Shown here piece by piece: positions 2,001 to 17,764 of a stretch of 37,367 nt of DNA. Made by a program: the position numbers and the translations under genes. Location: contig CAIXKI010000192.1 of assembly GCA_903920005.1 (NCBI GenBank), forward strand, positions 1-37,367, written 5' to 3'. The DNA is from an uncultured delta proteobacterium. Lineage in GTDB: Bacteria; Bdellovibrionota_C; UBA2361; OMII01. The notes below the pieces were generated by a model that was not told the DNA's origin, ran no database searches, and saw nothing but the letters and a program-made list of their open reading frames with translations. Numbering within the stretch: the first letter of the stretch is position 1; each line of letters opens with the position of its first letter.

Positions 2001-2455
2001 GTTGTAAGGGTATGACGGTACCGCCTCTGCATGTGAGATAAGCCCAACTATTTCTTCAGGAGGCCCCAACTATATCTCCAACTATTTCTCTCAGACACCG
2101 CGCGCAGCTCGGGTAAAGCTCTGATTAAGGAGGCTTGAGATGGGCTTATCTTCAAATAATGGCTTCCGTCTGCGTAGTTTTTGCCTAATGATTCTAGAGG
2201 GTAACCACGATTATGCATCTTCTTGGTGGCGTAACTCATCGAAATGATGAGAACTCTTGGGCGAATTGCGCCTTAAAAGAAGCGGTAAAAAGGGTCCGTC
2301 GAGAGCCTTCGGAGAGCTCGGTGAAACGAGTTGAAGGCGAGGAACTCCCGAGGTGTATCCCAGGAGATGTGAAATGTGTGACAGGACTTTTTACCACCCT
2401 ATGGGGATACGGACTCGAGAGTTGCCATGTATGACTTTTTAAACGCGAGCGCATC
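2001..2455. other. Gene-free interval upstream of rfbF
   Basis: 455 bases between the divergently transcribed exported protein and rfbF. Short reading frames on both strands (minus 2048-2239, plus 2213-2434) lack ribosome sites and recognisable products. The right half, 2284-2395, holds a nested inverted-repeat structure listed separately. No convincing sigma-70 promoter could be picked, although the rfbF operon must start here or further left. Confidence 0.6.
2284..2395 (+). ncRNA. Candidate structured RNA / 5' leader of rfbF
   Basis: Outer arms GGTAAAAAGGGTCC (2284-2297) and GGACTTTTTACC (2384-2395) pair over 12 bp with a two-base GG bulge. Inside, GCCTTC (2305-2310) pairs with GAAGGC (2333-2338). 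Stacked within that, AGCTCG (2315-2320) pairs with CGAGTT (2327-2332; one G-U) around the loop GTGAAA. This gives a second 12-bp stem with a one-sided GGAG bulge. CTCC/GGAG in the 3' part could form a third stem. The element ends 60 bases before the rfbF start. It matches no riboswitch or ribozyme consensus I can recall. Strand is assigned from the downstream operon. It may be a regulatory leader or a small RNA. Confidence 0.4.
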
Positions 2456-3232
2456 ATGAAGGCAGTTATATTAGCGGGTGGGTTCGGCACGCGCTTATCA
2501 GAGGAGACTAGTCTCGTCCCGAAGCCGATGATTCAGATCGGTGGCAAGCCGATCTTGTGGCACATCCTAAAGCTCTACTCTTCTCACGGGATAAACGATT
2601 TTATTATCTGTCTCGGATATAAGGGATACGTCATCAAAGAGTATTTCGCGAACTATTTTCTTCACACCTCTGACGTGACCTTTGATATGCGCGACAACCG
2701 TATGCATGTCCATCAAAAACACGCGGAGCCATGGCAGATTACGCTGATCGATACCGGGGATAACACGGGAACGGGCGGGCGTTTAAGGCGAGTCGCGCGG
2801 TATCTCGAACCTTCGGAGCCTTTCTGTTTTACCTATGGCGACGGGTTGTCAGATCTGGACGTTAGTTCAGAGCTCCAATTTCATAAGCAGCACAACAAGC
2901 TCGTCACGCTGTGTTCTGTTCAACCTCCCGGTCGATACGGTGCGATCGTTACGAACGGGAAGAACGAGGTAGTTGGCTTTCAGGAGAAGCCCGCAGGTGA
3001 TGGTGGATGGATAAATGGTGGTTTCTTCGTCTTACAGCCGGAGGCTATTGAATTTATCGAAGGGGACGAAGAGTCGTGGGAGTTTCATACCCTTCCAAAG
3101 ATCGCCGCACGAAATCAGATACGTGCCTATGAGCATCACGGATTCTGGCACGCTATGGACACCCTGCGAGATAAGATCAATCTGGAAGAGCTGTGGAAAA
3201 AGGGCGATGCCCCGTGGAGAATTTGGAAGTGA
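2456..3232 (+). CDS. rfbF: Glucose-1-phosphate cytidylyltransferase
   Basis: Transfers CMP from CTP to alpha-D-glucose-1-phosphate, giving CDP-glucose, the first step of CDP-deoxysugar synthesis in the cytoplasm. The 258-residue length is normal for RfbF. The nucleotidyltransferase signature GGFGTRL lies at residues 8-14, followed by KPM at 23-25. Other conserved segments are DTGDNTGTGGRLRR, FTYGDGLSDLD and the Gly-rich WINGGFFVLQPE. It heads a tight cluster: the next gene (rfbG) begins on its stop codon, then an epimerase and a glycosyltransferase follow. The ribosome site is weak (GAGCGC close to the ATG). A potential structured leader lies immediately upstream. The identification is firm. 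Confidence 0.97.
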   Translation: MKAVILAGGFGTRLSEETSLVPKPMIQIGGKPILWHILKLYSSHGINDFIICLGYKGYVIKEYFANYFLHTSDVTFDMRDNRMHVHQKHAEPWQITLIDTGDNTGTGGRLRRVARYLEPSEPFCFTYGDGLSDLDVSSELQFHKQHNKLVTLCSVQPPGRYGAIVTNGKNEVVGFQEKPAGDGGWINGGFFVLQPEAIEFIEGDEESWEFHTLPKIAARNQIRAYEHHGFWHAMDTLRDKINLEELWKKGDAPWRIWK

Positions 3233-4299
3233 TCAATCCAGGATTCTGGCAGAACAAGAGTGTTTTCATTACGGGGCACACCGGTTTTAAGGGATCGTGG
3301 TTATCAATCTGGTTAACGAGCTTGGGTGCCAAGGTGCACGGGTATTCTTTGGCGCCTCCTACAGACCCCAGTCTTTTTGAGGTGGCTGGCGTTGCCTCCT
3401 TTATTTCCAACCACACGATAGGCGATGTTCGAGATCGCGCAGCCTTGGAGCGCGCAATCGATCGAGCAAGGCCTGATATTATCCTGCATCTCGCCGCGCA
3501 GCCGCTTGTGCGGCAGGCATACGTTGACCCAGTTTTTACGCTGGAGACTAACGTCATAGGAACCATGAATCTCCTTGAGTGCGCTAGGGTGTGCGACGGC
3601 GTGAAAGCGATAGTCAATGTCACCACCGACAAGTGTTACGAAAACAAGGAGTCCTTGAGGCCCTATCGAGAGACGGATGAGCTCGGTGGATTCGATGTCT
3701 ACTCGGCAAGTAAGGCGTGTAGCGAACTCGTAACGGGCGCGTACCGCAGGTCCTTTCTCGCCGAGAGTGGGAAATATGTTGCCACGGCCAGAGCAGGGAA
3801 CGTCATCGGTGGGGGGGATTGGTCCGTTGATCGATTAATCCCTGACTTTCTTCGAGCCCTAGATGTGGGAGCGACGTTGCGCATTCGTTATCCGGATTCC
3901 GTGCGACCGTGGCAGCACGTATTGGAAGTTCTCTCGGGATATATGTTGGTCGCGGAGCGATTATATAGTGATGGTGCCGCGTTTGCGGGCCCGTGGAATT
4001 TTGGTCCAAGAGATTCCGACTGTAAGTCTGTGGGATGGATAGTGGAGCACCTTTGCTCGATCTTCCCGGGGGGCACGTGGGCATTGGATGGGGCTCCAAA
4101 GCCTCATGAGGCTCATTTGCTCACTCTTGACGCCAGTAAGGCGCACAGGGAGCTTGGGTGGTCTTCTGTTTGGGATCTCCCCGAGGCTCTCTCGAAAACC
4201 GTTTTGTGGCACAAAGCGTGGCGAGAACAGAGAGGTATGCTTCAGGTCTCGCTTTCGCAGATTCAGAGTTTCGTCGCTGACGGACGAGGGGCCGTATGA
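3229..4299 (+). CDS. rfbG: CDP-glucose 4,6-dehydratase
   Basis: NAD-dependent short-chain dehydrogenase/reductase that converts CDP-glucose to CDP-4-keto-6-deoxy-D-glucose. The GTG at 3229 is preferred. It overlaps the rfbF stop as GTGA, has GGAG nine bases upstream, and gives the usual family N-terminus (MINPGFWQNKSVFITGHTGFKG). In-frame GTG codons at 3193 and 3214 would lengthen it by 12 or 5 residues. From 3229 the protein has 356 residues, with the Rossmann loop GHTGFKG at 16-22, HLAAQPLVRQAY near 87-98, TTDKCYE at 132-138, and catalytic Tyr158 and Lys162 in YSASK. The 3' end overlaps the next gene as ATGA. The identification is firm; only the start is open. Confidence 0.95.
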   Translation: MINPGFWQNKSVFITGHTGFKGSWLSIWLTSLGAKVHGYSLAPPTDPSLFEVAGVASFISNHTIGDVRDRAALERAIDRARPDIILHLAAQPLVRQAYVDPVFTLETNVIGTMNLLECARVCDGVKAIVNVTTDKCYENKESLRPYRETDELGGFDVYSASKACSELVTGAYRRSFLAESGKYVATARAGNVIGGGDWSVDRLIPDFLRALDVGATLRIRYPDSVRPWQHVLEVLSGYMLVAERLYSDGAAFAGPWNFGPRDSDCKSVGWIVEHLCSIFPGGTWALDGAPKPHEAHLLTLDASKAHRELGWSSVWDLPEALSKTVLWHKAWREQRGMLQVSLSQIQSFVADGRGAV

Positions 4300-4877
4300 G
4301 CGACCGATTCGTGATAGAGGAGACTCCCTTAGATGGGCTGAAGGTCATCCAGAGGAATTACGTTGGCGACACTCGGGGCTTTTTCGAGCGTCTCTTCTGT
4401 TCGAGTGACCTTGAGCCGCTCATGAAACACCGCAGGATTGCGCAGATTAATCAATCTCTCACCCATGATGTAGGAGCGGTTCGTGGCATGCATTTTCAGC
4501 ATCCCCCTTATGCCGAGACGAAGATCGTGACCTGCACGAAGGGTGAGCTTTTTGATGTTGCTGTTGACGTGCGTTCATCATCGCCCACATTTCTTCAGTG
4601 GTTCGGTATTCGACTTTCGGAAGAGAATCATACGAGCTTGTTGATTCCCGAGGGGTTTGCCCACGGCTTTCAGGTGCTCCGACCAGATAGCCAGATCCTC
4701 TATTTTCACTCGGCGCCGTATCACAAAGACGCGGAGGGGGGGCTCAACGCGCTCGATCCCCGCGTTGCCATAGCTTGGCCCCTTGCAGTAGGCTCAAGAT
4801 CGGAGCGAGACGCGCGACATCCGATGCTTGGTGATTCCTTCTCGGGAATCTCGTTGTCGGCTGAGGTGTCTGTGTAA
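4296..4877 (+). CDS. dTDP-4-dehydrorhamnose 3,5-epimerase-like (RmlC family), probably CDP-sugar epimerase
   Basis: Cupin-fold epimerase of the RmlC/RfbC family, 193 residues. Visible family features are DTRGFFERLF (25-34), RGMHFQ with the catalytic-base His66, Lys76 (ETKIV), FAHGF (121-125) and a Tyr-containing PYHKDAEGG segment (141-149). Known RmlC enzymes epimerise C3 and C5 of dTDP-4-keto-6-deoxyglucose. Here the gene is translationally coupled (ATGA overlap) to the CDP-glucose 4,6-dehydratase, and no dTDP-sugar genes are in the window. A CDP-4-keto-6-deoxyhexose is therefore the more likely substrate, by inference. No rfbH/ddhC (3-dehydratase) and no dedicated 4-ketoreductase are present nearby, so the end product is unknown. 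Confidence 0.88.
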   Translation: MSDRFVIEETPLDGLKVIQRNYVGDTRGFFERLFCSSDLEPLMKHRRIAQINQSLTHDVGAVRGMHFQHPPYAETKIVTCTKGELFDVAVDVRSSSPTFLQWFGIRLSEENHTSLLIPEGFAHGFQVLRPDSQILYFHSAPYHKDAEGGLNALDPRVAIAWPLAVGSRSERDARHPMLGDSFSGISLSAEVSV

Positions 4878-4971
4878 GCCCGTTTTGTGAAAGACAAGAG
4901 TATTTCTAGGGTACGCTCCGCTGTCGCTAAAAAGGTCTCAATTAAAAAGTCGCTAGTAGGCATCGCATCGT

Positions 4972-5934
4972 ATGAGCAAGATAGTCGTCTATACAGGGGT
5001 CTACAACGAGATCCGGTTTGTGGATCAGATGATTCAGTCAGTGTTGAATCAGACCCATTCCGACTTTGATTTTTATATCTCTGATAATTATTCGACGGAT
5101 GGAACCTCCGATGTCGTCAGGCACTATGCCTCTTTGGATCGTCGAATAAAGGTCATCTCGCCGCCATCCCACCTGAGCTCGCTCGATCATGGGCAGTTCC
5201 TTATAACGTATCTTAAAGGGACGCCGTGTTCAGCGGCTCAGTTTCTCGGTGGGCACGACCTCATCAGCGCTGATTACCTGGAGAAAATGCTAGAGGGGCT
5301 TAATCAGAATCCTACCGCCGCGATAGCGTATCCGAAAAACGCGTATGAGATAGACCACGACAATAAGATTATAAAAAAGTGGGGGAGCTCTCCGCAAACA
5401 ATAGGGGTTCCGCAACCTTTTAAGACGATCATGACCCTTTTAACGTTAACCTATAACGTTCCGTTATATGGTTTGTGGCGGTATGAGGTGTTTAAGCGAA
5501 TCGAGAATCACCCGCGATGTATCGGTGGCGATCACCTCTTTGTCGCGTATGCCACATGTCTTGGAGACCTTGTAGAGATCTCCGAAGGGGGGCTCTTTCT
5601 TCGACAGGCGACAGGCGTCGGGGATATCAATACGTATCAAGAGAAGCACCTCGGTTCTGTAAGAAATACGGGAGAGGATTTCATTCATCAATTGAAGCTC
5701 CTCTCTGAGATGATCGATACGATCAGTCAGGCACAGTCCCCGGAGATGCGCGACGCGATTCGAGCGAGCGCGATCCTCATGTACATCAGCAGGCACAGTT
5801 ACTATGTCACAAAAGAGGAGGACCGCCGTCGTCTCTTCTTAGACCCGACCATTTCAGCCGTGATAAACGTGCTCGTTGAGTCGGGCGGAGTGCTTCGAAC
5901 TATGTTAGACCAATTTAAGCCACCAGCGAGCTAG
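4972..5934 (+). CDS. Family 2 glycosyltransferase
   Basis: GT-A fold glycosyltransferase (GT2), 320 residues. The N-terminus VVYTGVYNEIRFVDQMIQSV and the DNYSTDGTSD segment (about 38-47) are the usual nucleotide-sugar binding elements. GGHDLISADY (about 94-103) occupies the position of the metal-binding DxD loop, with the first Asp replaced by Gly, so metal binding may differ. There is no membrane segment, so it probably acts at the cytoplasmic face on a lipid- or polymer-linked acceptor. It lies 94 bases after the epimerase gene on the same strand, so it is likely part of the same glycan cluster. A terminator-like hairpin overlaps its stop. Donor and acceptor cannot be deduced. Confidence 0.85.
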   Translation: MSKIVVYTGVYNEIRFVDQMIQSVLNQTHSDFDFYISDNYSTDGTSDVVRHYASLDRRIKVISPPSHLSSLDHGQFLITYLKGTPCSAAQFLGGHDLISADYLEKMLEGLNQNPTAAIAYPKNAYEIDHDNKIIKKWGSSPQTIGVPQPFKTIMTLLTLTYNVPLYGLWRYEVFKRIENHPRCIGGDHLFVAYATCLGDLVEISEGGLFLRQATGVGDINTYQEKHLGSVRNTGEDFIHQLKLLSEMIDTISQAQSPEMRDAIRASAILMYISRHSYYVTKEEDRRRLFLDPTISAVINVLVESGGVLRTMLDQFKPPAS

Positions 5935-5971: not shown

Positions 5972-7135
5972 CTATGCGTCTATCCGCTTGTCGTCTGAAA
6001 GCCACGGATTGTGAATGTGCTCTGAATAAGCACAGTGCTTCGAGCCGTTTGACTTTTCGCACAGCGCGACGATCTTTTCGATGACGAGTTCCCAACGAAA
6101 ATTCAGGGCCGCATAAGCGGAGGCGTTAGACGACATCTGCGCGAGTCTGATGGGATTAGAGAGGAGATTATTAAGGGCGCCGGTGAGCGCCTGCTGAGAA
6201 ACCTCATCAACTACAAAGCCGGTTTCGTTGTGCGCGATACCCTCCGGAAGGCCTCCCATTTTGAAGGCGACAACGGGGGCGCCGCATGCTTGAGCTTCAA
6301 GAGAGGTAAGTGGATAGGGATCGAACCAGATCGATGGAACCACACAGATTCCTGAACGCCGGAAGCCAGCAGCGATCTCTTGCTGACTCTTCTTTCCATG
6401 AAAGGTGATTCCAGGGACGGTCGCCGCCAGATTTGTGATGTCGAGATATTCGTCACGGGACCAGAGAGAGGAGCTGCCAAACACTTCAAGCTCAAGGTCC
6501 GGAAACTTAGCTTTAAGCTCGATGTATGATCCGATCAATACGTGGAGTCCTTTGTCAGGGACAAGGGCCCCTGAGAATACGAGGCGTCGAGGCGCGCGAA
6601 CCTCCTCGGGTTTCGGCGAGAATATGGAAAAATCCACTCCGTTGTGAATTACGGTCATCTTGTGGGCTGGAGCCCCTTCGCTTACGAGTTTCTCTTTTTG
6701 GGAATGAGATACGCAGAGAATTTCGTCGCAGACCTGCTCTAAAACATCTGGTTTTAATCCTGTGTCTCCGGTGCAACGGTCGTGCGTGACGAGTAGTCGC
6801 CTAACGCAACGCTCTCGTCGACGAGACATGAGAATTGCGAATGCTTTTCCGGCGGCGATTAAAACATACTTCCCTTGAGTGTCCGCCCAATCGAGAGCTC
6901 GATCGATGTCGTAACTGGAACCAAGATCGATGAAATGAACTCCTCGATCGCGGGTGATTGGGTGTTTCAGTCGCGCGGCGATCGCGACGTTTCTTCCAGA
7001 CGCAGCAAGATATCGAGCTTGGTTGAGTGTTGCCATCTCAGCTCCGCTATTCGGGCCTGTTGGATCGAGCGGATGGTCGGTATGAACGATGAGGTAGGTC
7101 GGTGGACTCGGGCGAGGGGCGTTCATGACTATCAT
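5972..7135 (-). CDS. Family 4 glycosyltransferase (GT-B fold)
   Basis: A 387-residue glycosyltransferase of the GT4/RfaB type. The N-terminal half has HTDHPLDPTGPNSGAE, resembling the acceptor-side loop of GT-B enzymes. The middle has CVSHSQKEKLVSEGAP and VIHNGVDFSIF, typical of the domain boundary. The C-terminal donor domain has VFSGALVPDKGLHVLI and EAQACGAPVVAFKMGGLPEGI, the EAxACGxPVVA motif binding the nucleotide sugar. Two ATG codons (7135 and 7126) are possible starts; neither has a clear ribosome site. It converges on the GT2 gene, so it is a separate transcript but probably belongs to the same surface-glycan pathway. The specific sugar is unknown. Confidence 0.9.
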   Translation of the reverse strand: MIVMNAPRPSPPTYLIVHTDHPLDPTGPNSGAEMATLNQARYLAASGRNVAIAARLKHPITRDRGVHFIDLGSSYDIDRALDWADTQGKYVLIAAGKAFAILMSRRRERCVRRLLVTHDRCTGDTGLKPDVLEQVCDEILCVSHSQKEKLVSEGAPAHKMTVIHNGVDFSIFSPKPEEVRAPRRLVFSGALVPDKGLHVLIGSYIELKAKFPDLELEVFGSSSLWSRDEYLDITNLAATVPGITFHGKKSQQEIAAGFRRSGICVVPSIWFDPYPLTSLEAQACGAPVVAFKMGGLPEGIAHNETGFVVDEVSQQALTGALNNLLSNPIRLAQMSSNASAYAALNFRWELVIEKIVALCEKSNGSKHCAYSEHIHNPWLSDDKRIDA

Positions 7136-7285: not shown

Positions 7286-8626
7286 TCAGGGTGTGGCGAT
7301 AAGGTCTTCAAGGGGGCGGGGAAAATCGAGTATCAGAAATTCGGTTGGTAGATCCTGAAAAGTGGCTATTTGCGCCCTAGTTTTTTCTCTCTCGCGCGGC
7401 TTCAGTGTAATCCCAAAGTCGTTGTCCTTCGACACGATCAGTGTTCGATTTTTGTTGATGAGCGCCAGCCCTTCGATCTTTCCGGAGTCCCAAGAGAAGT
7501 CCTTAAAGTCGAGCACCAATGACCGTTGGATCGGCGCGGTAATCTTGCCGGTGCTTGTGATGAAATGATCCGAGTCTATCGCGCGCGCTTTGTGGAGGTC
7601 GAGAAGGATAACGTGATAATGCTTTTTGTCGTCTTTCGACTTGTAGGCTTCAAGGGCCAGAAATCTATGGTTAGACAGAGAGACGAGCTCGCCGATTTTA
7701 TATGAGTCCGGCTCCGCGTTAGTGGGAAGTACGAGGGGATACGTAACCACCGCGTCCTTTGGGTTAGCTGTCGCTGGCAGTATCAACAAGCGAACGAAGC
7801 CCTCTCGCGTACTGTTGGAACGGTTGTGCAGAGGGCTCTGAAGGATTGCGGCGAGATGGTCGGAGGGCATATAGGCAAGGCCCTCAAATCCTCGATTTGT
7901 GGCCCTGTGTTTTACGAGCTCAGGCAGGCCGGCGCCGGGATACAGCTCTTTCGTAATCCTGCGGGTAGACGGATCAATAGCCAAGAGGCTAGGGCCGTAC
8001 TCCTCGGCGACCCAGAGGATCTTTCGATGGGTGTCAAAGGTGACCGCTTCCGGGTCGATGCCGTGTCCTCCGTCTTTGGGTGTATCGATTTCGGAATGCG
8101 ACGAGTCTAGGGCTATTTCGTCCTTACGAGACGAGGGGAGTCCCGTCATCGAGTGACCAGTCGAGGAGGTTACCGGCAACGCCTGGCCTTTCGGCAGTAA
8201 AAAACCGGTATCGGAGTCTCCCGGGGATGGATGGACAGAGATATCGCTCCCTCGTACCGTTAGCGCATAGAGGGAAGGGTTGAAGTCTGGCTTGGGAAAC
8301 AGGACCCGCTCTGCCGCAACTCCTGCCGCGTTGTTCAGGGTGATGTTTGGTCCTCGGTCGGAGAGCGCAAGAAGGAGGGACGCGTCTCCGCTACTATAAA
8401 TTGTTGCTAGGCCCGAGCCTATCGCCAAAGGAATCTTCGTCCCGTCATCAGATGCGGCCGCAAGGTATGTCTGGTGTTGTACAACTCTTTGTGTTGACGG
8501 GCTCTCCCGTGAGAGCATGGGGACCTCGGGAGGGCTCGCAAGCCCGGCATCTACAACGCCCAGCACCGCCCAGAAAATCGAGGCGGCTATTAGGTAAATT
8601 CGGCGTGTAAATAGCTGGTAATACAT
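7286..8626 (-). CDS. Exported esterase-like phytase family protein
   Basis: About 446 residues with an N-terminal signal peptide: positive MYYQLFTRRIY, a hydrophobic core IAASIFWAVLGVVDAG, and cleavage near LAS. The body matches the esterase-like phytase family (Pfam Phytase-like), a beta-propeller-like domain. Conserved pieces are LLALSDRGPN near the start, GHGIDPEAVTFD with LWVAEEYGPSLLAID in the middle, NRGFEGLAY, and KIEGLALINKNRTLIVSKDNDFG near the end. Substrates of this family are poorly defined; phosphate ester hydrolysis is implied by family name only. It is divergent from the DUF4956-VTC-CotH operon and shares its upstream region. The start ATG at 8626 fits the signal peptide. Family assignment is good; activity is uncertain. 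Confidence 0.8.
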   Translation of the reverse strand: MYYQLFTRRIYLIAASIFWAVLGVVDAGLASPPEVPMLSRESPSTQRVVQHQTYLAAASDDGTKIPLAIGSGLATIYSSGDASLLLALSDRGPNITLNNAAGVAAERVLFPKPDFNPSLYALTVRGSDISVHPSPGDSDTGFLLPKGQALPVTSSTGHSMTGLPSSRKDEIALDSSHSEIDTPKDGGHGIDPEAVTFDTHRKILWVAEEYGPSLLAIDPSTRRITKELYPGAGLPELVKHRATNRGFEGLAYMPSDHLAAILQSPLHNRSNSTREGFVRLLILPATANPKDAVVTYPLVLPTNAEPDSYKIGELVSLSNHRFLALEAYKSKDDKKHYHVILLDLHKARAIDSDHFITSTGKITAPIQRSLVLDFKDFSWDSGKIEGLALINKNRTLIVSKDNDFGITLKPREREKTRAQIATFQDLPTEFLILDFPRPLEDLIATP

Positions 8627-8798: not shown

Positions 8799-9494
8799 AT
8801 GGATACTTTTCTTGACCAAATCGCCAAGTTTTCTGACCCAAGTCATGTCCTCTCGCTTAGTCAGCTGTGTGTGAGTCTCGGTCTCACCCTGGTGCTGTGT
8901 CTTATTCAGGCTAAGGTGTATGAGCGAACCTATCGAGGGGCGTCATACTCGCCGGCTTTCATGCACACACTGGTCATCTGCGGAATGGTTATTTCTGCGG
9001 TGATGATGATTATCGGTAGCAATATCGCCCGGGCGTTCAGCCTCGTCGGAGCTCTCTCCATCGTGCGATTTCGAAACGCCGTAAAAGATCCCCGTGACGT
9101 TGCGTACATCTTCTTCGCTATGGCGATAGGAATGGCGTGCGGAACCGGTTTCTACCAAGTGGGCATTGGACTTACGGTGATCGTGAGTGCGGCCTGCCTT
9201 CTTATGGATTGGTTGAATTTCGGTCAATCTGGACTTTCAGAGAAGATCGCTCGCATTCGGGTTCCGTCTGCGGCGGCGACGAGTGGAGTGTTTGACGATA
9301 CGTTGAGGCTTCACTGCAAAGACTTCTCTTTGCTTTCGGTGGAGTCTCTCCGAGCTGGTACAGAGACTGAGTACACCTTTCTCATGCGGGTAGCCGGCGT
9401 CTTCAATATCGACAAATTCATGAAAGACCTACAGCGCCTCCATTCTGAAATGCAGATTCAGGTGCGGGGAACAGACCACATTTTCGAGTTGTAA
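8799..9494 (+). CDS. DUF4956 family membrane protein
   Basis: Integral membrane protein, 231 residues from the ATG at 8799. This start has GAGG six bases upstream (GTTGAGGACCTC) and is preferred over a TTG at 8757. Hydrophobic segments lie near residues 23-40, 54-77, 102-117 and 119-138. Between the second and third is SIVRFRNAVKDPRD, the conserved charged loop of the DUF4956 family. A soluble C-terminal domain of about 85 residues follows, cytoplasmic by the topology of the family. Function is unknown. DUF4956 genes are often found beside VTC-domain and CotH genes, as here: the VTC gene starts 18 bases later. It may be the membrane partner of the VTC protein, comparable to the membrane part of the yeast VTC polyphosphate polymerase (inference). 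Confidence 0.88.
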   Translation: MDTFLDQIAKFSDPSHVLSLSQLCVSLGLTLVLCLIQAKVYERTYRGASYSPAFMHTLVICGMVISAVMMIIGSNIARAFSLVGALSIVRFRNAVKDPRDVAYIFFAMAIGMACGTGFYQVGIGLTVIVSAACLLMDWLNFGQSGLSEKIARIRVPSAAATSGVFDDTLRLHCKDFSLLSVESLRAGTETEYTFLMRVAGVFNIDKFMKDLQRLHSEMQIQVRGTDHIFEL

Positions 9495-9512
9495 TCGGAT
9501 AGGTAGCTATTC

Positions 9513-10325
9513 ATGGCTAAGCCGGGAACGCGCCACGAGCTGAAGTACGTTGTAGATCTTCACAAAGGAGAGGATTTCATGCGCGCCGCCGAGCCGTTCT
9601 GTCGACCGGATGAGCACGCTGGCGCCGATGGGTTCTACGAGACGTTAAGCATCTATTACGATACCGAAAGTCTACGGTTCTATTGGGATCGTCAGGAATC
9701 GGTTGGATGTCGTCGAAAAGTTAGGTTAAGGCGCTATGCGGGCGGAAGTGTTGTTGATAGTCCGCTCTTTCTTGAAATTAAAGAGAAACATAAGCACATG
9801 ATTGCGAAGAAGCGCTGTGTGCTTGAGCCACAAGACGGTGCCGACATCTTGATATCGGATTCTGGCTTTTTAGCTCTCGACAAGCTTCTTCCTCTTGTCG
9901 CCCCTTCGAAGGGAAGAGACGAGATATCTTTTCTCCACGAAAGGCTTCTATTACAGCCGGTTGTGAATGTTCGATATCTTCGAAAAGCCCTCGCCGGCCA
10001 AGCTGACCCAACACTGAGGATTACTTTGGATAAGAGGCTCACGGCGTCGTTACCCTCTGTCTGTGATTATGACTCGACCACTGAGGATTTCTTTCTTCCC
10101 CCTTCGCAAGCCGTGCTTGAGATAAAGAGTGAGCGCTCAGTGCCATTGTGGTTGCTATCGCTTGTTCGACGCTTCGAGGTCTCGCGGGGGCGCTACTCCA
10201 AATATTGTGCGGCTGTTGATATGCTTAAGAGTGCTCGTCGGACGTCTGGCAGACTGCTCGCCAAGACGGAACCTGAGAGCTGGGATTCGGGTCAGGCACA
10301 TTCCGTTCCTGAGAGGGCGGCCTAA
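9513..10325 (+). CDS. VTC-domain protein, putative polyphosphate polymerase
   Basis: A 270-residue cytoplasmic protein of the VTC domain family, the triphosphate tunnel fold that in yeast Vtc4 makes polyphosphate from ATP. Tunnel strands are visible in order: RHELKY (7-12), YYDTESLRFY (48-57), RRKVRLRRY (67-75), FLEIKEKHK (86-94), VRYLRKAL (153-160), LRITLDKRL (168-176), VLEIKSE (201-207) and GRYSKYCAAV (226-235). The alternating Arg/Lys and Glu residues expected to line the tunnel and bind metal are kept, so it could be catalytically active. No SPX domain or membrane segment is present. It is second in the DUF4956-VTC-CotH-CYTH operon, six bases before CotH. Polymerase activity is inferred from the family; some bacterial members have not been tested. 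Confidence 0.88.
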   Translation: MAKPGTRHELKYVVDLHKGEDFMRAAEPFCRPDEHAGADGFYETLSIYYDTESLRFYWDRQESVGCRRKVRLRRYAGGSVVDSPLFLEIKEKHKHMIAKKRCVLEPQDGADILISDSGFLALDKLLPLVAPSKGRDEISFLHERLLLQPVVNVRYLRKALAGQADPTLRITLDKRLTASLPSVCDYDSTTEDFFLPPSQAVLEIKSERSVPLWLLSLVRRFEVSRGRYSKYCAAVDMLKSARRTSGRLLAKTEPESWDSGQAHSVPERAA

Positions 10326-10331
10326 AGAGGT

Positions 10332-12107
10332 ATGAGAACCGTTTTCTCGTCATCCGCTATTCCTGAGGGCTTTGATACGGGGCACATTCTCTCGCTTCGA
10401 TGGAAGCGTCGTGTAAAACGTGTCGCAATAACCGGGATCTTCTTTATCCCTTTGGCGTGGATTGCCTTCCTTGGTGCGGATTACCTGGCTCGGACTCCTC
10501 GCGAGCGGAAGCTCGCGCGGATCGGTTATTGGGACCAGATTATCTACGGTGCGCGATTTAATGCCATATATGCCTGGAACTGGCTTACTGCGGAACAAGA
10601 CGATCCCAAAGGCTCAGCGCTGCCGGTAATGGAACTTTATATACGTACTGAGCGTTTGAAAGCTCTCAAAGCGCACTTGCCCGAGAGTGGAAGGATCTAT
10701 CAGCCCGGCTTGTTTAAGGTCCGAAGGAAGGGTGAGCCGAATAGTGTTTTGGGTGCGAATCTCCGTTTTCGCGGCGATTCGATGAATCACTGGGCGTTTC
10801 CGCAAAAATCATGGCGAGTAAAGCTTAAGCGGGGCTCGCGATATCTCGGGATGCGGCAGTTCAATTTATACCTCCCCCGAACCAAGAGTCAGATTCCTGA
10901 CTTCCTTGGTTATCGGCTTGCTGAGAACATGGGGGGGCTTGAGGTCCCCAAGGCATTTCCTATTCACCTCCGCGTCAATCGTCAATTCGACGGAGTGAGG
11001 GTCTTTTTGGAGCAGGTTAACGAGGACTTCTTCTTAAATCATAACCTCTCAGCCGATCGCCTCTTTGTAGGTGATATAGATTTTAAAGATGTATACGCAT
11101 ATCACGATCGGGAGTTTCTCTTTGAGAGTGTGAAGGGATGGGAGGTGGTTCCGACCAAAAAGGGCGGGGATACTTCGGTGGCCCCGATGCAGGCCTTGCT
11201 TGAGGTGTTGCCGATTGCCGCGAACGAGCCCGAGCGATTTAAGACTGCGATTGAAAAAGTGCTCGATGTTCAGACGACGCTTCGCTACATGGCATATCTG
11301 GAGATAGTAGGTTCTATTCACGCGGATGAAACCCATAATCAGAGGTACTTTTTTGACCTGCGGACCCAAAAACTGAAACCCATCGTCTGGGACCCAGTCG
11401 CTTACTATCGCGAGAAGATAGACGGTATCGACTTCGCGCCAAACGGGCTCTTTCAGGCATTGCTGCAAATTCCCGAGTACCGCGAGGAGAAGAATCGATG
11501 TGTATGGGAAGCTATTCATGGAGCTCTCTCTCCTGGTCGAGTCGCGCAGCTCATAGAGGACAGCGCGGACTCTGTTCGTAAGGAGATTCTCGCGTCTCCT
11601 CAAAAAGTTTATACGTTTCGGGCGAACCTGGACATGATGCCAAATTCTGAATGGGAGTCTTCCGTTCACGAGTTGGTGGAGAAGAGTCGTGCGCGAAGTG
11701 AGGTGTTGCGATCAGCGTTACGAAAAATCTCGATATCCGCCGAATCGAAAGGTTCCCACGGCGGAGTTGAGGATGTTCACATTATGGTTGGAGCGGATGC
11801 CGGGTTCGAAGCTCGTGAATTGGTATTCGACTCTACAGGAAGTGTCCCCACCTCTGTTGTTGTTGAGGAAGATGGCGTCGCGAAGCGGATACTCTGCGTC
11901 CCAGTTGAGAAGGGTGGGTGTGTAGCTCGGTTCGATCGGTTCTTATCCTCGAAACGGAGGGTCGACAAAAATGACGATTTGATTCGTGAATCGCGTCCGT
12001 ATCGTTGGTCGATACGCACTGGAAGTTCTTCTCTTCGATTGCGTTTCATTCGCGGTGTTAACACCATCACCAAAGAGCCTCATGGTGTTGAGGTGAAGAG
12101 GGGATAG
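10332..12107 (+). CDS. CotH-family protein with N-terminal membrane anchor
   Basis: 591 residues. After about 30 charged residues comes one membrane segment (VAITGIFFIPLAWIAFLGADYL, 31-52), so the rest is probably outside the cytoplasmic membrane. The CotH domain, an atypical protein-kinase-like fold known from spore-coat CotH, spans about 97-400. It has RFRGDS (145-150), KSWRVKLK (159-166) with candidate ATP-binding Lys residues, ADETHNQRYFFD (331-342) and KPIVWDPVAYY (349-359), where Asn336 and Asp354 match the catalytic/metal positions. The C-terminal 130 residues appear to form an added domain I do not recognise. The ATG at 10332 follows AAAGAGGT closely, so the ribosome site is rather near. 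It is third in the operon and overlaps the next frame by at most a base. The phospho-acceptor is unknown. Confidence 0.85.
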   Translation: MRTVFSSSAIPEGFDTGHILSLRWKRRVKRVAITGIFFIPLAWIAFLGADYLARTPRERKLARIGYWDQIIYGARFNAIYAWNWLTAEQDDPKGSALPVMELYIRTERLKALKAHLPESGRIYQPGLFKVRRKGEPNSVLGANLRFRGDSMNHWAFPQKSWRVKLKRGSRYLGMRQFNLYLPRTKSQIPDFLGYRLAENMGGLEVPKAFPIHLRVNRQFDGVRVFLEQVNEDFFLNHNLSADRLFVGDIDFKDVYAYHDREFLFESVKGWEVVPTKKGGDTSVAPMQALLEVLPIAANEPERFKTAIEKVLDVQTTLRYMAYLEIVGSIHADETHNQRYFFDLRTQKLKPIVWDPVAYYREKIDGIDFAPNGLFQALLQIPEYREEKNRCVWEAIHGALSPGRVAQLIEDSADSVRKEILASPQKVYTFRANLDMMPNSEWESSVHELVEKSRARSEVLRSALRKISISAESKGSHGGVEDVHIMVGADAGFEARELVFDSTGSVPTSVVVEEDGVAKRILCVPVEKGGCVARFDRFLSSKRRVDKNDDLIRESRPYRWSIRTGSSSLRLRFIRGVNTITKEPHGVEVKRG

Positions 12108-12112
12108 TGAGT

Positions 12113-13105
12113 ATGCGTATGCGGTCATATGTATCGTTCCTTGTGATATTGACGGCTCTTTTTTCGGCTTTGGTATCCCAGGCCCAGACCCTCGAAAAGT
12201 TCGACACCATGCGTCTTGAGAACGAGATGACCTTTGATGTCCCTCTTGAACAGGCCGAGGAGGTATGGAGCTGGCTCAACGCGACCTTCGGAGGAGGCTT
12301 TCAGTCTCACGCTGCAAATTTTAAGACGTTTCCGGAGGTCGAGGAGTTTGCTGATACCTATTTCGACGTACCAGAGATGACCCTTATTAATCAGGGGATC
12401 GGTGTTCGCCATCGTCGGCGATTCTATCCAAATGGAGATATCAAAGAATTGATTCAGATTAAGCAGCCACACGAGGCTGTGGGGAGGGGAGAGGAGAACG
12501 AGAAGCAGACTCGCGGAGAGGTGAAATTTGAGCCTCGGGGGCCGACCATTACCTATCGACACTCTGAGGACTTTTTGAACGAAGAGCTCCTTCGAATTGT
12601 GAAGAAAGAGCATTTGGCTCCTCTACGGGTACGACTTTCAGATATGGGTGTCTCGCCTGATCGAGTACGTCCGTTCATCGCGATTGAGCAACAGCGTCGT
12701 CGAGTATATTTTAGGGAAAACGGTAATCAGTTTCTTACCGTGACACTCGACTTTGCGAAGACGCAAAAATTGTGGGTGAAGGCAAAATTCGTTCAGCTTG
12801 ATATCGAGATAGGAGAGATTGCGTTCACCTTGGCGGACGATGCCAAGAGAGAAAAGCTGCTCGCTATTCAGGGGGATATATTCGGAATGATAAAGTCCCG
12901 ATTCCCAGATATTAAACGCAATCAAGTTCCCAAAGTTGTGCAGATGGTGAACGTGGTACGAAATCAGGGGATGTGGTCGTACCTGACGGTGCGGTACGGG
13001 TGGTCTCTCCCCCTTGCTCTCTCCCTGGCGACACTGTGTGGGGTGTTATTGTTCCGTCGCCGGAGCTCTAACGCGAACCTACAGGACGCCCGTGATGTGG
13101 CTTAG
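12113..13105 (+). CDS. Exported, membrane-anchored CYTH-like (triphosphate tunnel) protein
   Basis: 330 residues from the ATG at 12113, chosen because AGAGGGG lies about ten bases upstream; GTG at 12107 and ATG at 12119 are alternatives. A signal peptide (about 1-24, ending SQA) is followed by segments in the order of a CYTH domain: ENEMTF (36-41), YFDVPEMTLINQGIGVRHRRR (split at 83-94 and 95-103), ELIQIKQ (112-118), TRGEVKFE (133-140), IEQQRRR (191-197), LTVTLDFA (208-215) and QLDIEIGEI (228-236). The first motif, normally ExExK, has Thr in place of Lys. Near the C-terminus is a membrane segment (298-314) then RRR, giving a type I topology with the domain in the periplasm. It is the last gene of the DUF4956 operon. 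Its 3' end overlaps the convergent GT2 by 27 bases. CYTH assignment is by pattern, not search. Confidence 0.72.
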   Translation: MRMRSYVSFLVILTALFSALVSQAQTLEKFDTMRLENEMTFDVPLEQAEEVWSWLNATFGGGFQSHAANFKTFPEVEEFADTYFDVPEMTLINQGIGVRHRRRFYPNGDIKELIQIKQPHEAVGRGEENEKQTRGEVKFEPRGPTITYRHSEDFLNEELLRIVKKEHLAPLRVRLSDMGVSPDRVRPFIAIEQQRRRVYFRENGNQFLTVTLDFAKTQKLWVKAKFVQLDIEIGEIAFTLADDAKREKLLAIQGDIFGMIKSRFPDIKRNQVPKVVQMVNVVRNQGMWSYLTVRYGWSLPLALSLATLCGVLLFRRRSSNANLQDARDVA

Positions 13106-14587
13106 TGACTCTAGGAGTGGGCGTGGGTCTCGTGCTTTGGCTCGTGTGAGACCGAACGGGTCTGCCTCAAACTCCCGCTTAAGCGTCTTAAGTACTTCGA
13201 GAATGATCCGATCTCTCTCGGTTTGCCATTGCGAGACCTCCATCGAGTAGTTCCGTGTGGTTGGGTGCACGATGACTGTATCGGATCCCTGAATAGACCA
13301 TCCTTTGTATATCAGACGAAGCAGGAGCTCTTTTAGAGAATGTGCCGGGGAGTTCGGGTGTCGGAATGTTTCGAGCTCTAATAAGGCCAGACGTCGCGCG
13401 TATATGTTCGGATAGAAATACGACGACGTGAGAAAACCTGGGAGGTTCAGTTCCCCTGATTGTTGGAAGAACGTATTGAGCTGCGCCATGCCTCCTTGGA
13501 TGGTCGGTATCATTAATCCGACCGTATCGAGGGCGAATTGATGAAGTGCTCGGTGTGATGCGTTCTCATCCAGAGTATCGCCTGGCTGCAAAAATCCAAC
13601 GATCGGCGAGACGGCTTTCTGCACCCCGGTCGTAAACGCTGAAAATTCATTCGGAAGGGCGGCTTTGGCGTAGCGCACGGTTATTTGGGGGATGGCTTCA
13701 GATAGGTCGAGCGAGAATTCGTGAACAAACTTCGACATCTCTCTATCGGCTGCATAGTCAATTATGAAGATATCGAAATCGATGCAGGTCTGTTTCGTCA
13801 GGCTTTTGAAGGTCTCCTTTGAGATCTCTGAGGGCTCGCGCATCGGCATGATGTAGCTTAGTTGTCGCTCGGTCGGATTGAGTCCGTTCATATGACGGCG
13901 GTAGACACGAGAGCACTCCCGTTGAGTCGCTTGTGGGCGAGCACCTGTTTTGTTCTCGTCATAGATGCGGAAAAAAGAGAGAACCTGGTCGATATAACGA
14001 ACGAAGGGATACCTCATCGCCATTCTGAACCAGAGGTCGAGGTCCATGGTGAAAAAGAGATCCTGATCAAGGTAGTTGCCGTCACTCCTTCGCACCTCTT
14101 CCAGAAGGGACCGGCGGAAGAACACAGACGTTTGCGCCACCCACGCATAGGGTATCCAATAACGAGCGAGGTCGTAGAATGATCGTGGAGGGTTTTCAAC
14201 GATAGTGACGACGTTGCCCTCTTTGTCTGTTTGGGCAGCCTTCCCCAAAACAACCGGATAATCCTTAAGGGCCTCAGCGATAACATGGAAGGCCCCTTCG
14301 GCGTACCAGTCGTCCGAGTTGAGCCATGCGATGATGTCGCCAGTCGCTCTGGAAAATCCTTTGTTGAGAGCGTCGGATTGTCCATCGTCTTTGGCGGAGG
14401 TCCACTTCAGGTGAGGGTATTTGCGAAGGATGTCGAGTGTTGAGTCGGTTGAGCCTCCATCTACGATAATGTGTTCGAAATTGGGATAGCCTTGGCTTAG
14501 GACCGACTCAATGTTTTTCTCGATGAATTGTCCCTGATTATACGAAACCGTAACAACGGATATCTTTGGAAAAGTTGAGTCTGTCAT
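13079..14587 (-). CDS. Two-domain family 2 glycosyltransferase
   Basis: About 502 residues from the ATG at 14587; ATG at 14596 and GTG at 14626 are alternative starts. Residues about 8-230 form a standard GT2 domain: ISVVTVSYNQGQFIEKNI, HIIVDGGSTDST, DDGQSDALNKGF and AWLNSDDWYAEGAF carrying the DxD equivalent, then WVAQTSVFFRRSLL. Residues about 245-490 look like a second, degenerate GT-A domain: SLTKQTCIDFDIFIIDYA matches the first strand and loop, and VGFLQPGDTLDENA matches the DxD region with key acids altered. Probably one active and one binding domain (inference). It lies opposite the CYTH-like gene and overlaps its last 27 bases tail to tail. Sugar specificity is unknown. Confidence 0.88.
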   Translation of the reverse strand: MTDSTFPKISVVTVSYNQGQFIEKNIESVLSQGYPNFEHIIVDGGSTDSTLDILRKYPHLKWTSAKDDGQSDALNKGFSRATGDIIAWLNSDDWYAEGAFHVIAEALKDYPVVLGKAAQTDKEGNVVTIVENPPRSFYDLARYWIPYAWVAQTSVFFRRSLLEEVRRSDGNYLDQDLFFTMDLDLWFRMAMRYPFVRYIDQVLSFFRIYDENKTGARPQATQRECSRVYRRHMNGLNPTERQLSYIMPMREPSEISKETFKSLTKQTCIDFDIFIIDYAADREMSKFVHEFSLDLSEAIPQITVRYAKAALPNEFSAFTTGVQKAVSPIVGFLQPGDTLDENASHRALHQFALDTVGLMIPTIQGGMAQLNTFFQQSGELNLPGFLTSSYFYPNIYARRLALLELETFRHPNSPAHSLKELLLRLIYKGWSIQGSDTVIVHPTTRNYSMEVSQWQTERDRIILEVLKTLKREFEADPFGLTRAKARDPRPLLESLSHITGVL

Positions 14588-14651
14588 AGTGCCCATGCGG
14601 CCAATCGCGCGCTTTAAGGTAAACACGGTCAGGTCGGCCTAGCTCGTTACA

Positions 14652-15530: not shown

Positions 15531-16985
15531 ATGAAATCAGGACTTTCCATCCTTCCCCTCGATGACGCACCGGCTAAGAGTTGTTCGGTTGCGGTCAATA
15601 TTACTGAGCCACAAGCTCTGGACGGCAAAGCAGCTTTTGTCGGGCGCGCGGCCATCGTGACTCTTGGTTGTGCCAAGAATCAAGTGGACTCAGAGGTAAT
15701 GATCGGAGTGCTTCGCAACTCCGGGTTTGAAATTACAAACGATCTTAGTCACGCCGATGTCGCGGTGGTAAACACCTGCGGATTCCTTGAGAGTGCGGTA
15801 AAGGAGAGCGTTGATTGCGTTCTTGAGCTTTCGGAGCTTAAGAAATCGGGAAGCCTCCGTCGGTTGCTTGTGGCGGGCTGTATGGTCGAGCGCTACAAGG
15901 GCGATATTCGCAAGGCGCTCCCTGAGGTCGACTCTTTTATCGCCCTCGATGGTCTTTTGAGTGTTGGTCAGGCTGCGCTTGGGGCTGATGATTCTCTACG
16001 AGATATTCTCAACGAAGGCGCGCGACCCTATTTCCTGTACGACGAGACGATGCCGCGTCACCTCGCGTCACATCCGTACATGGCGTATGTAAAGGTGTCC
16101 GAAGGGTGTAATCGTCCTTGTGCGTTCTGCATTATTCCGCAGATTCGAGGATCGATGCGTAGCCGTTCGATCGAATCGATAACAAAAGAGGTTAAGGCGC
16201 TTGCGGCGCAAGGAGTCAAAGAGATTAACCTTGTGGCTCAAGACCTCACCGCGTTCGGAACTGATACGAATGCCGGACGTCTCGTCGAACTCCTTCGCTC
16301 CTTGGATGAGGCGAAGGCCGCTCCGTGGATAAGGTTGCTTTACGCGTATCCAGTGGGCGTTGATGATGAGCTCCTTGACGCTATCACGAACCTGTCGTCT
16401 ATCTGCACGTATCTAGACGTTCCGCTACAGCATGCTAGCGAGGACGTATTGAAGGCCATGAAGCGACCGATCGGCCGCTATGGATCTCGCCGTTTTGTAG
16501 AGTACGTCCGTTCGAAAGCTCCTTCGATTAAGCTTCGTACGACGTTTATCGTCGGATTCCCAGGAGAGACCGAGGCTGATATCAAGCAGCTTGAGGATTT
16601 CGTCGCGGAGGGACATTTCGAGAGTGTTGGAGTGTTTACCTACTCACCCGAGCAGGGGACTACCGCGTTTGATATGGACGATCAGATCTCTGAGAAGGAG
16701 AAGCGAGTCCGTCGAGATCGTATCATGCTCGCGCAACAGAAGGTGAGGATCGCCAAGAACGAAGAGTATATCGGTCAGGAGATAGAGGTTCTCGTTGAAG
16801 GACCTCATGAGGAGACCGATATGTTGCTTTCAGGCCGTACCCGGTTTCAAGCGCCGGAAGTCGACGGGACGGTTCTTATTAACGATGTTGTTGACGGGTT
16901 AGGAGAGATTCAAGCTGGTCATCTCGGCCGCGTGAAGATAACGGAAGTTTCAGGCTATGACCTGGTAGGAACATTAGTTGCATGA
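15531..16985 (+). CDS. rimO: Ribosomal protein S12 methylthiotransferase RimO
   Basis: Radical SAM enzyme with two iron-sulfur clusters that adds a methylthio group to an aspartate of ribosomal protein S12. Order: an N-terminal extension of about 38 residues, the UPF0004 domain with cluster ligands Cys47 (TLGCAKNQVDSE), Cys83 (NTCGF) and Cys117 (AGCMVERY), the radical SAM cluster CNRPCAFC (193-200), and a C-terminal TRAM domain from about residue 415. IIPQIRGSMRSR and QDLTAFGTD separate RimO from the tRNA enzyme MiaB. The extension has no in-frame alternative start near the family's usual position, so it seems genuine. AAGAG lies about four bases before the ATG. The stop overlaps the next start as ATGA. 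Confidence 0.95.
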   Translation: MKSGLSILPLDDAPAKSCSVAVNITEPQALDGKAAFVGRAAIVTLGCAKNQVDSEVMIGVLRNSGFEITNDLSHADVAVVNTCGFLESAVKESVDCVLELSELKKSGSLRRLLVAGCMVERYKGDIRKALPEVDSFIALDGLLSVGQAALGADDSLRDILNEGARPYFLYDETMPRHLASHPYMAYVKVSEGCNRPCAFCIIPQIRGSMRSRSIESITKEVKALAAQGVKEINLVAQDLTAFGTDTNAGRLVELLRSLDEAKAAPWIRLLYAYPVGVDDELLDAITNLSSICTYLDVPLQHASEDVLKAMKRPIGRYGSRRFVEYVRSKAPSIKLRTTFIVGFPGETEADIKQLEDFVAEGHFESVGVFTYSPEQGTTAFDMDDQISEKEKRVRRDRIMLAQQKVRIAKNEEYIGQEIEVLVEGPHEETDMLLSGRTRFQAPEVDGTVLINDVVDGLGEIQAGHLGRVKITEVSGYDLVGTLVA

Positions 16986-17764
16986 GCAATCCAAGGATCG
17001 GAATCTTCATTATTGCCTACAACGCCGTAAATCATCTTATTCAGACGATCTCTCGAATACCGAAAGAGGTCTACGATAACGTAGAAGAGATCTTTGTTAT
17101 CGATGATTGCAGCAAGGATAACTCCTACTACGCGGCGCTAGGTTATAAAGCCGCGTTTGGAATCGAGAAGCTTACCGTGCACCGCAACGTGAAGAATCAC
17201 GGCTATGGTGGCAATCAGAAGATAGGATACCAATACGCGATCGATAGAGGGTTGGATATCGTGGCGCTTGTTCACGGTGACGGCCAGTACGCGCCCGAGG
17301 CTTTACCGAGTCTTTTGGAGCCTCTGATCAAGAAAGAGGCGGATATGGTTTTCGGATCCCGCATGTCGAAGCCGGCTGAGGCCCTTAAAGGGGGGATGCC
17401 GCTCTACAAGTTCGTTGGAAATCGAATTCTAACCCGATGCCAGAATGCTATGACGGGCTTAAAGCTTTCGGAGTACCACTCCGGGTATCGGCTGTATTCA
17501 GTTGAGGCGCTCAAGCGAGTTCCCTTCGAAGCGTTCACCAACAATTGGCATTTTGACACCCAAATCATCCTCGCGATGGCCGAACGAGGTTTTAGGATTG
17601 CGGAGAGACCGATCCCAACGTACTACGGCGACGAGATCTGTCATGTGAACGGTCTCCCATACGCCTTCCACTGTTTGGCAACTAGCTATCAGTATTACCG
17701 CAATAGAAAGCGCAAAGCGCTCTCGTATCCGGGGCCCATGGATATTCCGCGACTCGCTCGGTAA
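16982..17764 (+). CDS. Family 2 glycosyltransferase, polyprenyl-phosphate glycosyltransferase type
   Basis: A 260-residue GT2 enzyme of the dolichyl-phosphate mannose synthase-like (DPM/DPG) group. Motifs: IGIFIIAYNAVNHLIQTI, EIFVIDDCSKDNS (about 35-47), a glycine-rich loop KNHGYGGNQKIGYQYA, LVHGDGQYAPEAL with the DxD-like DGQ, then GSRMSKP and the acceptor-side HSGYRLYSVEAL. There is no C-terminal membrane domain, so it is probably soluble or peripheral. A polyprenyl-phosphate acceptor is suggested by the family and is not proven. It is translationally coupled to rimO, an unusual partner, which probably reflects cotranscription rather than shared function. Confidence 0.88.
   Translation: MSNPRIGIFIIAYNAVNHLIQTISRIPKEVYDNVEEIFVIDDCSKDNSYYAALGYKAAFGIEKLTVHRNVKNHGYGGNQKIGYQYAIDRGLDIVALVHGDGQYAPEALPSLLEPLIKKEADMVFGSRMSKPAEALKGGMPLYKFVGNRILTRCQNAMTGLKLSEYHSGYRLYSVEALKRVPFEAFTNNWHFDTQIILAMAERGFRIAERPIPTYYGDEICHVNGLPYAFHCLATSYQYYRNRKRKALSYPGPMDIPRLAR

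Follow-up and report, generated by a model that had tools for sequence, protein, structure and literature searches.

A trio of genes encoding a DUF4956 protein, a polyphosphate polymerase and a CotH-type protein has been described beside pel genes in Gram-positive bacteria (PMC7112168). In Streptococcus intermedius, strains lacking the DUF4956-like gene or cotH lost more than half of their aggregation in one medium and had a shifted level of Pel, and no such change was reported for deletion of the polymerase-like (VTC) gene; the same study did not find the trio outside pel loci (PMC12345266). The trio does occur outside pel loci in the window analyzed here, a stretch of 37,367 nucleotides from an uncultured delta proteobacterium, and at several related loci. 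Like the Pel-associated trio of Streptococcus and Clostridium (SIR_1592-SIR_1594; PMC7112168, PMC12345266), the window contains the same three families side by side with CotH outward and the VTC-type domain inward, but the described trio lies in a pel operon, has a different gene order, and has no outward CYTH partner described. No pel-type genes are present among the scanned ORFs of the window, and the idea that its trio is a pel module was rejected on these grounds. The yeast VTC complex likewise combines a tunnel polymerase in the cytoplasm with a membrane portion that exports the polymer, and the alignable catalytic positions of Vtc4 are kept in the window; here, however, the parts are separate polypeptides, DUF4956 stands in place of the VTC membrane domain, the SPX domain is absent, and outside the membrane a further tunnel protein is predicted. 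The recurrence of DUF4956-VTC-CotH neighbors, which the original prediction for this DNA had noted, is thus already known from Pel loci, and it is the outward tunnel component that is new; in the literature searched we found neither a description of such a partner nor CYTH and CotH named together.

The ORF coordinates agree with the original prediction of four co-directional genes at window positions 8799-13105 of the + strand, separated by successive gaps of 18, 6 and 5 bases:

8799-9494, + strand: DUF4956 membrane protein P0001, 231 aa, four TM segments, MgtC-like, with a C-terminal cytoplasmic domain
9513-10325, + strand: VTC-domain protein P0002, 270 aa, cytoplasmic, no TM segment; Pfam domain at 9531-10226
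10332-12107, + strand: CotH-type protein P0003, 591 aa; N-terminal TM segment at 10422-10478; CotH domain at 10761-11705, predicted outside
12113-13105, + strand: P0004, 330 aa, predicted exported protein of the CYTH/TTM fold

The surroundings are those of a surface-glycan region, with genes for a nucleotidyltransferase, a dTDP-sugar epimerase, an NAD epimerase and four glycosyltransferases (flanking genes at 2456-5934, 5972-7135, 13079-14626 and 16982-17764). An exported phytase-like protein (PF13449) is encoded divergently from the operon at 7286-8626 on the - strand; it was considered as part of the system and dropped, as the related loci showed no counterpart. CotH and DUF4956 are absent from the eleven other members of the genus, several of whose genomes are incomplete and one of which has a VTC match, and the operon is therefore patchy within the genus.

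P0001 matches DUF4956 (PF16316, E 2.6e-19) and MgtC (PF02308, 4.9e-6), and hydropathy gives it four TM segments, as expected of the predicted multi-pass protein. It is 57% identical to the DUF4956 protein of a DUF4956-VTC pair in genome G014, the VTC member of which is 44% identical to P0002. P0002 has no TM segment by hydropathy and matches VTC (PF09359, 1.4e-33). The prediction of an intact VTC catalytic pattern holds for the six alignable Vtc4 tunnel positions (RLR, K, K, R and R), all of them identical in P0002; we take these substrate-binding lysines and arginines of the tunnel to be the Vtc4 positions that matter, and the C-terminal Glu and Lys were judged by eye only. P0002 is probably a polyphosphate-making enzyme inside the cell. 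The constant linkage of DUF4956 suits a role as the membrane partner; that it acts as a channel is a guess.

P0003 matches CotH over the full length of the domain (PF08757, 2.9e-27) and the Bacillus cereus CotH structure 5jd9 by phmmer (E 4.4e-9). Hydropathy identifies a single N-terminal TM segment with basic residues ahead of it, an arrangement that should put the CotH domain outside, and the membrane-anchored, outward CotH of the original prediction is borne out. In comparison with the spore-coat kinases of B. subtilis and B. cereus, with which it shares the full-length domain, P0003 is membrane-anchored, occurs in a non-spore context, and has relatives that are fused to a CYTH-like domain. 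We take K, E, DxxHN and WDxD to be the essential active-site residues of CotH kinases. P0003 has the K, the E, the D/HN and the initial D of WD, but throughout its clade the second D of WDxD is missing, with WDxVAY replacing the WDYDAT of B. cereus CotH, and the catalytic competence of these proteins is therefore uncertain.

The fourth gene was predicted to encode an exported CYTH-like protein, and the following features of P0004 bear on this:

12113-12187, + strand: signal peptide (hydropathy)
about 12188-12982, + strand: tunnel domain (AlphaFold2 model and Foldseek)
12218-12232, + strand: beta-1 motif ENEMT (E36, E38, T40), counterpart of ExExK (alignment of 15 relatives)
12407-12421, + strand: RxRxR tunnel motif (R99, R101, R103), invariant in all 15 relatives
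12800-12808, + strand: acidic DIE motif (D230, E232), counterpart of the acidic EIE of relatives (alignment)
12998-13054, + strand: C-terminal TM segment (residues 296-314; hydropathy), followed by RRR

By sequence, P0004 matches Pfam CYTH with an E value of 0.0083 and 16.4 bits, under the cut-off of 23.2, and phmmer against the PDB returned chance matches only. An AlphaFold2 model built with a ten-row alignment, the rows of which are CYTH-like sequences themselves, is of medium confidence (pLDDT 67, pTM 0.67); a single-sequence model (pLDDT 36) was left unused. The Foldseek search proposed with the original prediction returned tunnel enzymes as the top matches to this model, the best in the PDB being the tripolyphosphatase AtTTM3 in its tripolyphosphate complex (E 2.6e-7, probability 1.0); the refuting outcome named with that prediction, a lack of any structural match to CYTH, did not arise. 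The best matches are TTM-fold proteins with TM-scores of 0.51-0.54 by query, and others include a plant adenylyl cyclase, yeast VTC (3.4e-5), an RNA triphosphatase and, with the same fold, Mediator subunits. A closed eight-stranded tunnel fold for P0004 is thus supported by the model, and together with the signal segment and the C-terminal TM segment, by virtue of which the tunnel should face outward, this supports the predicted exported CYTH-like protein.

With AtTTM3 and Escherichia coli YgiF, P0004 shares the predicted fold, the RxRxR motif and the acidic patch (E36, E38, D230 and E232); it differs in being exported and membrane-anchored and in having no CHAD domain. The matching glutamates of AtTTM3 and YgiF bind two metals, and a role of the acidic patch has been described (PMC4641920). 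The alignment of 15 relatives shows that the RxR pair, a late-strand D/E and a C-terminal K are also kept, and so are both glutamates of ExExK, but the lysine, present in 15 of 15 relatives, is T40 in P0004. The tunnel pattern is therefore mostly, not fully, kept, and because this lysine is missing P0004 may bind rather than cleave its substrate.

At least eight genomes of the window's phylum encode the CotH homologue as a fusion protein of 1130-1180 aa comprising an N-terminal TM segment, CotH (38% identical to P0003 over 549 aa), a middle region, and an outward CYTH-like domain with intact ExExK. This C-terminal domain of about 320 aa carries the motifs EREFK, YFDT, SYRxRNR, LExQAK, ARFEFR, TERFRQH, ISLD, EIEIE and KSKY, and Pfam CYTH was matched by seven of eleven scanned members (the fused domains, P0004 and the stand-alone protein of locus L082, see below), at best with 9.1e-5. 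Among 46 genomes of the phylum, VTC is found in 13, CotH in 13 and DUF4956 in 11, and these are nearly the same genomes; VTC and CotH overlap in 12 of 13 each (hypergeometric 4e-9, with the 46 genomes counted as independent of kinship). DUF4956 and VTC are adjacent in most positive genomes, where CotH is a separate long gene, and in the fusion genomes the DUF4956-VTC pair stands apart from the CotH-CYTH gene. The window looks like a split version of this fused arrangement, with all of the parts in one operon.

A scan for the fused CYTH domain in 84,980 species (one genome per species), which rests on short patterns and misses distant members, identified nine loci. Eight are fusions, and the ninth, L082, is from a metagenome-assembled genome labelled Bdellovibrionaceae, in which CotH is divergent from VTC-DUF4956-CYTH and the CYTH protein has an N-terminal TM segment. 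A profile search of 369 genomes of the L082 phylum added five further outward CYTH loci. All six of the stand-alone loci have the exported CYTH gene immediately after DUF4956 and co-directional with it (DUF4956 is at 8558-9232 in L091, for example); VTC is within the locus in four, the other two stopping at contig edges, and CotH is within two. VTC is encoded in 71 of the 369 genomes compared with five of the six with outward CYTH (hypergeometric 0.0012). Two loci (L093:7238-8908 and L095:10044-11816) have genes of 556 and 590 aa in the place of CotH beside VTC, divergent from DUF4956-CYTH; our first guess that these are CotH was dropped, as they are arylsulfotransferase-like (PF05935). A swap of the outward transferase is possible, and CotH is thus not obligatory. 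The extracytoplasmic CYTH-like partner that set the original prediction apart therefore recurs, either fused to CotH or beside DUF4956.

P0004 aligns continuously with this outward CYTH family with the motifs in identical order, and shares with it both an extracytoplasmic location, as predicted from the signal and TM segments, and an operon with DUF4956, VTC and CotH. In a set of 274 ORFs it ranks above the approximately 257 non-family proteins (10.9 bits, E 0.0026), and the matches that follow include several VTC proteins, but the family profile did not find P0004 in its own genome at E values up to 10. Membership is therefore probable though unproven, as the sequence match is not statistically significant, and the shared fold and shared partners are stronger evidence than the profile. 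The four-gene association that the original prediction asked to be checked across genomes is supported in part: the partners recur, but the exact four-gene order was found nowhere else among the loci examined, no significant sequence homologue of P0004 was found in 45 other genomes of the phylum, and neither P0004 nor P0003 gave a tblastn match on plasmids.

The relatives that fuse CotH to the tunnel domain, or keep the tunnel gene by the same partners, suggest a real system that looks like one for surface use of a phosphate polymer. The module with its new outward tunnel component is real and recurrent. Its architecture is well supported, and from it we infer the chemistry, namely all of the enzymatic activities, the export of a polymer, polyphosphate as the donor and a surface polymer as the target. 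We tentatively favor, at a little under an even chance, a membrane-spanning phosphate-polymer system with VTC and DUF4956 inside and in the membrane, and the CYTH tunnel and CotH outside. The VTC-domain protein would use ATP inside the cell to make polyphosphate or a shorter chain of phosphates, and DUF4956, usually adjoining VTC, would be its membrane partner and a possible exit path for the chain. The anchored outer tunnel protein would then bind, hold or trim the emerging chain, and the CotH-type protein on the same face would use it to phosphorylate a surface protein or polysaccharide. The Gram-negative periplasm has no ATP, which is why the chain is proposed as the phosphate source for CotH, and the joining of the outer tunnel domain to CotH in relatives fits a chain that is held and used outside. 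All of these findings are compatible with the putative function given in the original prediction, a polymer made inside that is sensed, processed or used for phosphate transfer outside.

In its most specific form, this becomes a previously undescribed pathway with tunnel enzymes on both sides of the membrane, in which polyphosphate from VTC passes via DUF4956 to CYTH and then to CotH or a replaceable transferase as an ATP-free donor for surface modification; we regard this as doubtful. The Pfam matches, the fold of the fourth gene product, the fusions, the co-occurrence, the DUF4956 adjacency and the kept Vtc4 positions argue for the favored membrane-spanning system, as does the altered Pel level and aggregation in S. 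intermedius upon deletion of the DUF4956-like gene or cotH (PMC12345266). Against that system are the lysine loss in P0004, the uncertain competence of CotH, the arylsulfotransferase-like swap and the failure of the genome-wide profile search to recover P0004, and also that the drop in S. intermedius aggregation seen with the DUF4956-like and CotH deletions is not reported for VTC. The genetic tie between a VTC polymerase and a CotH-fused outward tunnel offers a testable and concrete account of how kinases that face outward could work in a periplasm lacking ATP, namely with exported polyphosphate as their donor. The same tie would give a partner and a possible role to the DUF4956 and bacterial VTC proteins, which are widespread and uncharacterized.

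The missing lysine of P0004 would suit a sensor or regulator of surface polysaccharide output, in which a tunnel domain on either side of the membrane binds phosphate compounds, DUF4956 (MgtC-like, with its C-terminal cytoplasmic domain) relays their state, and CotH modifies the exporter or the polymer without bulk polyphosphate. Glycosyltransferase genes flank the operon and the related trio sits in pel loci and alters the amount of Pel, but polymerase-type residues are kept in VTC and the scanned ORFs of the window include no pel gene, and we consider this explanation somewhat unlikely. Loss of that same lysine weighs against the unlikely reading of outward CYTH as a phosphate-recovering tri- or polyphosphatase of the periplasm, with CotH an ATP-independent structural or adhesive protein and the operon serving scavenging or storage turnover. 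This would accord with a tripolyphosphatase being the best structural match, with the phytase-like protein encoded next door, and with metallophosphatase-like proteins in some VTC-CotH loci, but no phytase-like gene was seen in related loci, and in relatives CYTH and CotH are covalently joined, which speaks for a task in common. It is quite improbable that P0004 is a chance neighbor, a degenerate tunnel-fold protein beside the trio with no shared function. Its lack of significant homologues in the phylum, its absence from the profile matches genome-wide and the gene order unique to the window all point that way; however, an outward CYTH is found again, independently, with these partners, both in fused form and as a gene of its own, only five bases separate CotH from P0004, most of the invariant charged positions are kept, and P0004 scores best of the non-family proteins.

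Several other genes recur at the related loci. Beside the CotH-CYTH fusion there are an exported TSP3-repeat protein, an exported protein of about 480 aa (with no Pfam match when checked for L064) and MlaA (genes at L064 2451-4992 and 8551-9489, with matching genes in L062, L063 and L066-L069). Metallophosphatase-like proteins, one of them with TPR repeats, are encoded between the DUF4956/VTC and CotH genes at L017:1410-3473 and L030:3745-4722. Many VTC genes of the second phylum (L096-L113) have no adjacent DUF4956; they are located after a gene for an exported protein of about 385 aa, and some face one of about 450 aa, neither type giving a Pfam match in the examples checked. Examples of these VTC-associated exported genes are at L096:311-1471 and 2250-3614.
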